Assembly (NCBI RefSeq): GCF_019737615.1
Contig: NZ_JAHKKS010000002.1
Span: 62,001 to 126,000 of the forward strand
DNA length: 64,000 nt
Source of the DNA: Sphingobium xanthum
Lineage (GTDB): Bacteria; Pseudomonadota; Alphaproteobacteria; Sphingomonadales; Sphingomonadaceae
Direction: 5' to 3'
Part shown: positions 51,720 to 54,229 of the stretch, piece by piece
Numbering within the stretch: position 1 is the stretch's first letter
How the letters are laid out: each line of letters opens with the position of its first letter
Position numbers and translations under genes: made by a program
The notes under the pieces: model-generated
What the model was told of the DNA's origin: nothing
The model's database searches: none
What the model saw: the letters and a program-made list of their open reading frames with translations, nothing else

Positions 51720-52586
51720 TTGAGCCGCTTCACCCATTTCGCCGCGATCGACTGGTCCGGCGCCGTCGGTCCGCGCCAGCCCGGCATCGCCGTCGCGCTC
51801 TGCGCCCTCGGCCGCGAAGCGCCCATGCTGGTGCGCGAGGGCCATATCTGGTCCCGGCAGGACGTCCTCGACTGGATGCTGGACGAGATGCCATCGGGCA
51901 CATTGGTCGGCCTCGATCTCGGCCCATCACTCCCCTTCATCGATCGCGACGCCTATTTTCCCGAGTGGCCGGAAAGCCCCGCCGATGCCCGATCGCTCTG
52001 GGCACTGATCGAGCGCATCTGCGCCGACGATCCGCATCTCGCCGCCGGCAGCTTCGTCGATCACCCGCAAGCCTCACGCTATTTCCGCCGCCATGGCGGA
52101 CGCGAAGGCGATCTGTTCGGCGGCGGACGCGGCCGTCTGCGCGTCACCGAACTGGCGCAGCAGGCGCAGGGCCTCAACCCCTACAGCAACCTCAATCTCG
52201 TCGGCGCCGCGCAAGTCGGCAAGTCGAGCCTCACCGGCATGCGCCTGCTCCACCGCGCCAGTCCCCGCTTGCCCGTCTGGCCCTTCGATCCCGATCCCGG
52301 CCACGGCAGCCTGATCGTCGAGATCTACACCAGCCTCGCCGCGCTGGCCGCCGGCAAGCGCAAGGGCCAGACCAAGATCGGCGCGGAAGAACTCGACACC
52401 CGCCTCGCCGCCTTCGCCTGCGATCCGCACGCGCCCCTGCGCGGCCGCTACACCGATCACGCAACCGACGCCCTCCTCACCGCCTCCTGGCTCCGCCACG
52501 CGCACGATCGCCCGGAGCTTTGGGCGCCAGCGGAGCTCACAAGCGATATCGCGCTGACCGAGGGCTGGACCTTCGGGGTCACCTGA
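51720..52586 (+). CDS. DUF429-like RNase H-fold protein
   Basis: 288 residues. Start HFAAIDWSGAVGPRQPGIAV and later LVGLDLGPSLPFIDRDAYFP resemble the DUF429/predicted RNase H-like fold (first Asp in AIDWSGA). C-terminal RLAAFACDPHAPLRGRYTDH and ATDALLTASWLRHA match the DH...DAL motif of that group. The only start in place is TTG at 51720 with GGGGA upstream. 11 bp downstream of the MmcQ gene. Activity is unproven. Confidence 0.65.
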   Translation: MSRFTHFAAIDWSGAVGPRQPGIAVALCALGREAPMLVREGHIWSRQDVLDWMLDEMPSGTLVGLDLGPSLPFIDRDAYFPEWPESPADARSLWALIERICADDPHLAAGSFVDHPQASRYFRRHGGREGDLFGGGRGRLRVTELAQQAQGLNPYSNLNLVGAAQVGKSSLTGMRLLHRASPRLPVWPFDPDPGHGSLIVEIYTSLAALAAGKRKGQTKIGAEELDTRLAAFACDPHAPLRGRYTDHATDALLTASWLRHAHDRPELWAPAELTSDIALTEGWTFGVT

Positions 52587-52608
52587 GGCCCCTCTCCCCA
52601 CTCAAACC

Positions 52609-52989
52609 CGTCATTCCCGCGAACGCGGGAATCCAGTATCGACCTATCGATGCCGCGCGAGCTTGATCCGATAGTGTATCTGCTGGCCTCGCGCCGAAAC
52701 GGAACGCTCTACGTCGGCGTCACGTCCAACCTGATGCAGCGACTTGCTCAGCATCGAGATGGAAGCTTCAGAGGCTTCACCGCCGACCACGACGTCAAAA
52801 TGCTGGTCTGGTTCGAGCAGCATGCGATCATGGAAAGCGCAATCGTGCGCGAAAAGCAGATCAAGAAGTGGCGGAGATCATGGAAACTCGATCTCATCGA
52901 GCAGTCCAATCCCGAGTGGGACGATCTTGCAATCAGCCTAGGTTTTGAGCCGCTCGGTTGACTGGATGCCCGCATTCGCGGGAATGACG
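52609..52989. mobile_element. miniature inverted-repeat element carrying a GIY-YIG gene
   Basis: A 28-bp end at 52609-52636 (CGTCATTCCCGCGAACGC...) and one at 52962-52989 are inverted copies with 26 of 28 positions the same. Each end is palindromic (ATTCCCGCG/CGCGGGAAT around two bases on the left). The only gene inside, GIY-YIG, begins 13 bp after the left end and its stop touches the right end. The design resembles REP-associated nuclease/transposase units; mobilisation is inference. No target duplication was seen. Confidence 0.65.
52650..52961 (+). CDS. small GIY-YIG nuclease domain protein
   Basis: 103 residues, single GIY-YIG domain. VYLLASRRNGTLYVGVTSNL gives the paired tyrosines (Y10, Y21 with YVG), LMQRLAQHR the catalytic Arg31, and ESAIVREKQIKKWRR the metal-binding Glu69 and conserved KxW. 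This is the short UPF0213/YhbQ-like GIY-YIG group that occurs in many copies in sphingomonads. The ATG follows the left inverted end, with no good ribosome-binding site. Its boundaries coincide with inverted repeats, so it is likely to be part of the repeat element and possibly to act on hairpin ends of the repeat. Confidence 0.85.
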   Translation: MPRELDPIVYLLASRRNGTLYVGVTSNLMQRLAQHRDGSFRGFTADHDVKMLVWFEQHAIMESAIVREKQIKKWRRSWKLDLIEQSNPEWDDLAISLGFEPLG

Positions 52990-53216
52990 TTGAGCTTGGG
53001 CACCGCCTCGCCACCCCCCAACAAAAATTATCCCCCCGCCAATCATCCCTTGGTTGCCAATTCTCAATCGATTTGGCAGAGTTAACTCGTTCAGTCGGGA
53101 GACCCGTCTGAAACGCGGCTTTTGATGTCAGTCAGCTTGCTCCGCGTCACCAACCGCTAAAGCGCACGGCTCCTACGCGACAACGCCGGACTCGTGCTCC
53201 ACTTTGGAGAAACGAA

Positions 53217-53384
53217 ATGGCTCTCAGGAAAAACAGGTTCAGTCGTCCTGCCACGCATCACCAGCGCGGCCATGTCCCCCCGCTCCCGCATTCCTCGTGG
53301 CGCCTCGCTACCGCTGGCGTTTCTGACAGCGCACAGCCGCGGATCGGCACCGCGCGGGACTTCTGGGATCGGCTCGGCATTTAA
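53217..53384 (+). CDS. possible small protein of 55 residues
   Basis: ATG with GGAG 8 nt before it (TTTGGAGAAACGAA). The peptide is basic and mixed (MALRKNRFSR at the start, RDFWDRLGI at the end) with no membrane helix. It is 30 bp before the GATase gene and shares its direction. Too short for coding statistics by eye; an unannotated leader protein or chance frame are both possible. Confidence 0.35.
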   Translation: MALRKNRFSRPATHHQRGHVPPLPHSSWRLATAGVSDSAQPRIGTARDFWDRLGI

Positions 53385-53414
53385 AATGTCGGGCAGAAAG
53401 TCGTCCTCATCCTC

Positions 53415-54116
53415 ATGGTGAAGAGAGCGCTCATCATTCGCCACGTTCCGCACGAAGGGGTCGCCGGCTATCGGCAGCCTATCGAGGCGGCGGGCTATGG
53501 GATCGATCGGGTCGACGTGACCGATCCGGCCTTTGGTTCGCTCGACCTGCGCGAGCCAGATCTGCTGGTCATGATGGGCGCCCCCATGGGCGTCTACGAG
53601 CAGGAACGCTATCCGTGGATCCGCTGCCAGATGCATCGGCTCGCGCTGCGTCTGGGGGCGGACCGCCCGACCCTCGGGGTCTGCTTTGGGGCGCAGATGG
53701 TCGCCGCCGCGCTGGGTGGAGAGGTCTATCCCGGGCCGGTCAGGGAAGTCGGCTTTCACCCCATCAAGGTTCACGACAACGGCCGCACCGGGCCGCTCAG
53801 CCATCTTGTCGACGTGCCCATCCTGCATTGGCACGGCGACACGTTCACCCTGCCGGAAGGCGTCGAGTTGCTCGCATCGAGCGATCTTTACGCGCATCAG
53901 GCCTTCCGGCGGGGACCAAATCTGCTGGCGCTCCAGTTCCATGCCGAAATGGGCGAGGACGAGCGCTTCCACAGCTGGGTCGAGCAATGGCCCGAAGCGG
54001 TGTGTGAGAGCTGCGGCGACGTCGAGCGCCTCCGCGCTGCGCACGAGGAGCACGGCTCCCGTGCCGTCGCCGCCGGCCGCGCGATGATCGGGGACTGGCT
54101 GACGACATTGCATTGA
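53415..54116 (+). CDS. class I glutamine amidotransferase-like protein
   Basis: 233 residues. GATase fold with nucleophile Cys in TLGVCFGAQMVAAALGGEV and the His-x-Glu in ALQFHAEMGEDE; an upstream LLVMMGAPMGVYEQERYPWI is usual in the GMP-synthase-like stand-alone group. It may hydrolyse a gamma-glutamyl bond as in PuuD-like or related enzymes. No synthetase domain or gene is beside it. The ATG at 53415 has no clear ribosome-binding site. Confidence 0.87.
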   Translation: MVKRALIIRHVPHEGVAGYRQPIEAAGYGIDRVDVTDPAFGSLDLREPDLLVMMGAPMGVYEQERYPWIRCQMHRLALRLGADRPTLGVCFGAQMVAAALGGEVYPGPVREVGFHPIKVHDNGRTGPLSHLVDVPILHWHGDTFTLPEGVELLASSDLYAHQAFRRGPNLLALQFHAEMGEDERFHSWVEQWPEAVCESCGDVERLRAAHEEHGSRAVAAGRAMIGDWLTTLH

Positions 54117-54136: not shown

Positions 54137-54229
54137 CGTCACCCCGGGCTTGACCCGGGGTCCCGCTGCCTTTTCGCATCAGTCAATCCGCACCAAGAAG
54201 CGGGACCCCGGATCAAGTCCGAGGTGACG
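54137..54229. repeat. paired inverted repeat (REP-doublet), no gene inside
   Basis: Left 54137-54170 begins CGTCACCCCGGGCTTGACCC; right 54197-54229 is the inverted relative (GCGGGACCCCGGATCAAGTC...GGTGACG). 26 bp separate them. Same style as the 20.5-kb pair and as the ends of the GIY-YIG element (all outer ends begin CGTCA). Confidence 0.65.

Follow-up and report, generated by a model that had tools for sequence, protein, structure and literature searches.

CGTC-REPs are palindromic repeats that Di Nocera et al. (2013, PMC3733652) reported without a dedicated transposase nearby. Family CGTC-1 is described there as having a CGTC tag, an 8-bp stem starting with AT, a 4-nt loop and a CCA tail, and as occurring mostly in inverted dimers; it includes the Neisseria dRS3 repeats, and Rickettsia RPE-4 and RPE-6 are counted among the CGTC palindromic repeats. 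The same paper places REPs predominantly 3' of coding regions, and its authors suggest two possibilities, an early loss of the transposase or CGTC-REPs being served by a wide variety of transposases. The arms and short repeat pairs analyzed here fit the published description (PMC3733652), with the difference that a GIY-YIG gene lies between the repeats. Comparison across species suggests that genes like this one, which codes for a protein of 103 amino acids, are the long-missing enzymes of the CGTC-REPs.

A gene placed between inverted REPs of its own type, with that type abundant in the genome and many short inverted REP pairs elsewhere, is the arrangement of REP/RAYT systems, and the locus described here shares it. 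A RAYT, however, has a Y1/HUH domain, whereas the only domain found here is GIY-YIG (PF01541). Lacking a Y1/HUH domain, the GIY-YIG/CGTC-REP system is not a RAYT system, although it would work like one.

Free-standing GIY-YIG genes can be homing endonucleases. A 2025 paper reportedly described the Ssn proteins as GIY-YIG nucleases that act site-specifically on single-stranded DNA and, in Neisseria, have a repeated target, and such an enzyme is said to have been given a role in transformation. The protein analyzed here resembles the Ssn nucleases in its GIY-YIG domain, in having a Neisseria homologue and, given their reported target, in its association with a repeated sequence.

A GIY-YIG nuclease gene between two inverted CGTC-REPs

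The gene was found in a 64,000-nucleotide stretch of the 4.06-Mb Sphingobium xanthum genome (C12:62001-126000, referred to as the window), in a unit that falls between ORFs of 288 and 233 amino acids.

51720-52586: flanking ORF, 288 aa
52609..52989, plus strand: whole 381-bp unit, a GIY-YIG gene between a REP and its inverted copy
52609..52637, plus strand: left arm, CGTC-REP with its tag outward, 29 nt
52650..52961, plus strand: GIY-YIG nuclease gene, 103 aa
52961..52989, minus strand: right arm, inverted copy of that REP with two changes and an outward tag, 29 nt
53415-54116: flanking ORF on the other side of the unit, 233 aa

The initial annotation had described the ends as near-identical inverted copies of 28 nt matching at 26 positions. 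They are indeed inverted, but the arms are 29 nt long and complementary at 27 of 29 positions (93%), with a spacer of 323 nt. The left arm reads, in order, CGTC, an 8-bp stem ATTCCCGC, a 4-nt loop, GCGGGAAT and a CCA tail. It shows throughout the features of a CGTC-REP (CGTC tag, short stem starting with AT, loop of 4–5 nt, CCA tail), while the right arm shows them with two changes and has a weakened stem. As single-stranded DNA, the left arm is predicted to fold at -8.0 kcal/mol (z -3.2) and the right arm at about -6.2 kcal/mol (z about -2.1). On this evidence both arms fit CGTC-REPs of family CGTC-1, to which dRS3 belongs. Taken by itself at up to 3 mismatches, the 20-nt palindrome pattern is not rare in the window: it has two matches, a number that 20 of 100 shuffles also reach. 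A known structured RNA was rejected, as a search of Rfam gave no match in 52300-53400.

Between the left arm and the start of the ORF lie 12 nt, and the stop codon overlaps the right arm by one base, the last of the codon and the first of the arm. The annotated picture of palindromic ends enclosing a single GIY-YIG gene, with the stop codon meeting the right end and the start near the left, is therefore confirmed, the ends being CGTC-REP arms around a 103-aa ORF. In Pfam this ORF matches the GIY-YIG domain (PF01541, E 3.6e-14); in NCBIfam it matches no family. The unit does not look like a standard insertion sequence, since no DDE, HUH or other known transposase was found in it by Pfam or NCBIfam.

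Among 131 homologous proteins, E68, N87, G18, G23 and H35 are kept in all 131, R31 and Y10 in 130, and Y21 in 129; we take these to be residues of the active-site (catalytic) type. Compared by sequence profile, the closest solved relatives of the protein are the UPF0213 members 1zg2 (E 4.7e-8) and 1ywl (E 4.3e-4). A homologue from Neisseria gonorrhoeae is 61% identical over 89 residues. This GIY-YIG protein is also probably related to the Ssn single-strand nucleases.

Copies of the repeat in the Sphingobium xanthum genome

A scan of the genome for the REP pattern with its outer bases, allowing up to 3 mismatches, gave 24 matches, compared with none for the reversed-pattern control. We read the matches as five inverted pairs (the gene unit among them), four single copies, and five solo palindromes that each match on both strands, so that the repeat occurs in this genome in the many, mostly inverted-dimer copies expected of a CGTC-REP.

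G000 C1:447101, C4:107601, C19:203614, C19:254511 and C3:91155: solo palindromes, CGTCATTCCCGC-NNNN-GCGGGAATGACG or near it, from the pattern scan

The four inverted pairs that lack a gene (REPINs) measure 56–66 bp from start to start, and their tags point outward as in the gene unit. PF01541 has four matches in the genome, which are three small genes and one match within a 643-aa frame taken for UvrC. Inverted palindromic arms flank the other two small genes as well (21 nt, 95%; 29 nt, 97%), and the three genes carry three different arm sequences. No such arms accompany the only Y1_Tnp gene of the genome.

Another inverted CGTC-type REP pair, of the CCCGGGCTTGACCCGGG kind and with its tags outward, was seen in the window at 54137-54229, 1.1 kb from the unit. 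It represents a second repeat type within the same window.

Inverted arms accompany most homologues

Homologues were sought in 249 genomes of the family (Sphingomonadaceae) and were present in 178, with up to 12 per genome. The flanks were analyzed at 131 family loci, which are the best-matching places plus locus L001 rather than a random draw and include three from the genome of the window. For each, the best inverted pair between the 250-bp flanks was scored, with positions shifted by 500–600 bp in the same loci as the only control. At a threshold score of 16, a pair was found at 102 of the 131 loci and at 8 of 506 shifted positions; in a smaller set, 23 of 30 loci scored above 14, the maximum of 120 shifted positions. 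Palindromes with outward CGTC-type tags were present on both sides at 88 of the 131 loci (2 of 520 shifted positions). Counted by side, such palindromes occurred on the left at 106 loci and on the right at 94, and tag-inward palindromes at 39 and 33, respectively. The median distance from the tail of the left REP to the expected start downstream is 21 nt, whereas the right REP often extends into the 3' end of the frame.

The repeat types recognized at the family loci were TTCCCGCG, TTCCTGCG, CTGAACTTG, CCGGACTTG, CCCGGCG and, by eye, TTGCGAG. Both arms were found in 89 loci, with one named type accounting for both in 75. When the arms of 87 comparable units were aligned, 61 stem pairs differed, comprising 40 paired double changes, 20 single changes and 1 unpaired double change. 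With 40 of the 61 differences being double changes that keep the pairing, it is the hairpin itself that tends to be kept.

The arrangement was also found outside the family. From another collection, the best 80 of at least 576 named loci were taken and four were left out for short flanks; a pair was present at 52 of the remaining 76, compared with 0 of 288 shifted positions. Within the same best 80 of at least 576, 40 of the 49 named loci from outside the sphingomonads were positive by at least one of two criteria. The taxa represented among them include Lysobacteraceae, Methylococcaceae, Neisseriaceae, Myxococcota, Planctomycetota, Nitrospinota and Bacteroidota, and many of the sources are metagenome bins. 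A second out-of-family set of 19 loci, reduced to 17 by one with short flanks and one without the motif, had a pair in 10 (0 of 32 shifted positions). In a plasmid collection 33 records matched; four of the eight examined scored at least 16, but so did 5 of 32 shifted positions. Homologues without such ends, which the initial annotation had named as evidence against its reading, do exist (29 of the 131 family loci and 24 of the 76 drawn from the best 80 of at least 576 had no pair at the threshold), although the majority carry a pair.

Another explanation of these data would be that REPs are common between genes, and that REPs or bidirectional terminators merely happen to lie on both sides. 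The right arm does sit at the stop codon, in keeping with the mostly 3' location of REPs given in PMC3733652. Shifted positions, however, seldom pair (8/506, and 0/288 for the best 80 of at least 576), and the upstream arm, the outward tags, the type matching and the link with copy number would all be left unexplained. Chance or terminator pairing was rejected on the counts of 23/30, 102/131, 88/131 and 52/76 (the last for the best 80 of at least 576) relative to shifted positions, and we give this explanation very little credence.

On plasmid AZO_p3 of Azospirillum lipoferum 4B (L197, 1483-1776), a homologue annotated as a GIY-YIG nuclease separates sufB from sufC and has CGTC-type repeats to its left and right. 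At five other loci (L248, L252, L154, L156 and L159) the homologue is flanked by a CATTGCGAGC...GCAATCCAG repeat, and the arrangement may extend to further CGTC-like families.

Repeat type and number follow the gene

Repeat type was mapped onto a protein tree of 131 rows and 111 columns, in which 61 of 128 inner branches are open. It changes 19 times among the 108 typed rows, compared with 44–58 times in 200 shuffles. Two REP types, A and B, were then counted in the 249 genomes; the homologue search had matches in 178 genomes and the two counts in 131 and 129. Copies of the two types have a median of 11 in the 178 genomes with a homologue and of 0 in the 71 without (p 2e-16, relatedness ignored). 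The type that predominates is usually the type flanking the gene: A exceeds B in 13 of 14 genomes having A-flanked genes only, and B exceeds A in 33 of 38 having B-flanked genes only. Within the 30 genera containing both states, REP number is higher with the gene in 25, lower in 2 and tied in 3. Of the 178 homologue-bearing genomes, 85 have under 10 copies of these two types, and 5 of the 71 homologue-free ones have at least 10 (G018, G032, G070, G136 and G177), for which loss of the enzyme, an incomplete assembly or another route are possible reasons.

Y1_Tnp occurs in 36 of the 249 genomes and does not predict copy number (p 0.28); the 58 genomes with at least 20 copies include 55 with a GIY-YIG homologue and 9 with Y1_Tnp. 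On these figures and the armless Y1_Tnp gene of S. xanthum, a Y1/RAYT driver was rejected. The initial annotation had read the unit as a nuclease-plus-repeat system with a GIY-YIG enzyme in the place of the RAYT, and not as a standard insertion sequence. That reading gains support from the inverted REPs, usually of a single type, at most of the sampled homologues, from a REP type that tracks the protein tree and a REP number that tracks the gene, and from the missing link to Y1.

The main rival to such a reading is a domesticated nuclease of the Ssn type, which would recognize REPs but serve the cell, either by influencing which DNA is taken up or by removing hairpins at replication forks; the flanking REPs would then be regulatory or target sites, and REPs would have been multiplied by some other, perhaps extinct, route. 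The 61% identical N. gonorrhoeae homologue, the membership of Neisseria dRS3 in CGTC-1 and the role in transformation that Ssn reportedly has all favor it. It does not explain, however, why REP number drops without the gene, within genera too, and up to 12 homologues per genome resemble elements more than one cell function. This rival also bears on how the units are inherited, as discussed below, and overall we regard it as unlikely.

Units at differing places and deleted derivatives

The initial annotation had called for a search for multiple copies, precise boundaries and empty sites. As for copies, this genome does not hold the gene unit in multiple copies. Boundaries fared better: among 20 stretches from sister species, 18 match the unit and 2 are flank-only sites. 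In 12 of the 18 the longest match begins no more than 1 nt from the first base of the unit, and in 4 it ends at the last base, so that similarity mostly begins at the unit's first base. The match extends past a unit end in L174 (by 10 nt) and in L176 (by 29 nt). At one site in the same genus (G280), both neighboring stretches are present with 19 bp in place of the window's 433 and the unit is absent; some 50 bp outside the unit are also missing, so the site is not clean, and it holds no REPIN. Neither the sister species nor a second genus (g5) yielded a clean empty site of the gene unit from which a target-site duplication could be read.

Units do occupy differing places in sister species. In G287 the flanks of the unit match places on C18 of the window's genome that are separated by 6.7 kb, but the unit itself matches C12. 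Different species of genus g5 carry related genes (83–86% by comparison score) at two sites that lie some 10 kb from each other; other genes differ there too, so that these sites are not clean. Internally deleted units with REP ends are also present in G287 and G280; one of them (L179) shares 85–89% identity with the full G287 unit at each end, and two others (L178 and L181) are similar cases. For many other pairs of close homologues the flanks are common to both, indicating that the gene was inherited in place.

The REPs themselves turn over slowly. Comparison of REP clusters between close genomes gave 94 placements (counted from both sides), of which 80 were shared, pointing to slow turnover, and 11 were flagged absent. 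On reading, these 11 included one clean difference and two cases of a REPIN facing a solo palindrome, the others giving no clear reading. In the clean case a REPIN of one genome is absent from its partner, where the site has the sequence CTATCGTCCGGAG and retains the CGTC tag. In the other two, from the comparison of G174 with G220, one genome has a REPIN and its partner a solo palindrome, as if a deletion had occurred between direct half-stems.

A slow, largely vertical inheritance, with many units at the same place in relatives and most REP clusters shared, is what a domesticated nuclease would lead one to expect; units at differing places in sister species and deleted derivatives that keep intact ends are not. 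The next rival is a homing-like gene, in which the nuclease gene is the selfish part, cuts pre-existing REPINs and is copied into them with the REPs as homology arms, and REPs are not multiplied. The layout of the unit is that of a REPIN in which a gene replaces the linker, with tags outward in both, and homing is an activity of some free-standing GIY-YIG genes. Against this, REP number depends on the gene, the deleted units imply that REPINs can derive from gene units and not solely the reverse, and no REPIN of a relative was found at the place of a gene unit. A homing-like origin seems improbable.

GIY-YIG nucleases as candidate enzymes of CGTC-REPs

Judged from these comparisons, the GIY-YIG gene family is a strong candidate for the CGTC-REP enzyme. 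The 381-bp unit is probably the enzyme-bearing member of a CGTC-REP system in which the nuclease cuts its own REP type, REPINs depend on it, and both spread rarely. A small GIY-YIG nuclease, whose gene is enclosed by an inverted pair of REPs of its own type, would recognize the single-stranded hairpin of that type and cut it, and REPINs, which are two inverted REPs a few tens of bp apart, would be its non-coding dependants; some REPINs of sister species plainly look like internally deleted gene units. Most likely, hairpins would be exposed on single-stranded DNA, either on the lagging strand or on DNA that has been taken up, and then cut. Host repair would subsequently place a copy of the unit with its REP ends, or of a REPIN, at a new site, or collapse a REPIN, with the spread of units and REPINs being rare. 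Recognition is suggested by the type matching of gene and REP, cutting by the kept GIY-YIG residues and by the reported Ssn work, and repeat spread by the changes of location and the deleted derivatives. To our knowledge no GIY-YIG enzyme rejoins DNA, and the route of spread is therefore a guess.

With this gene family, a candidate enzyme can now be named for repeats that were reported without a transposase in 2013 (PMC3733652), and it lies between the repeats in most of the loci sampled. Matched enzyme–repeat pairs of several types make the origin of CGTC repeats directly testable. If the proposal is true, one kind of hairpin-repeat population has acquired drivers from two unrelated nuclease folds. 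Our word searches of the literature for work linking GIY-YIG genes to REPs found no such paper among the matches listed; the one joint match was incidental, and the 2025 Ssn paper lies outside the literature covered. A word search for GIY in PMC12306157 and PMC6006769 likewise gave none. The Ssn paper may already cover part of the finding, and if it reports repeat-flanked genes in many species, the new part would be the link with several types of CGTC-REP, the dependence of copy number on the gene, and a unit that is both mobile and deletable.

A broader proposal, in which we place slightly less than even confidence, is that GIY-YIG nucleases are the dedicated mobilizers of the whole CGTC-REP superfamily across bacterial phyla. 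This would amount to a second, independently evolved form of REP transposition that uses neither HUH nor DDE chemistry, with specificity set by a few residues and possibly with insertion at CGTC targets. Position 73 best separates two of the repeat types: of 25 A-type proteins 24 have K there, and of 50 B-type proteins at least 49 have R, N or A, making it a lead for repeat specificity that is confounded with descent.
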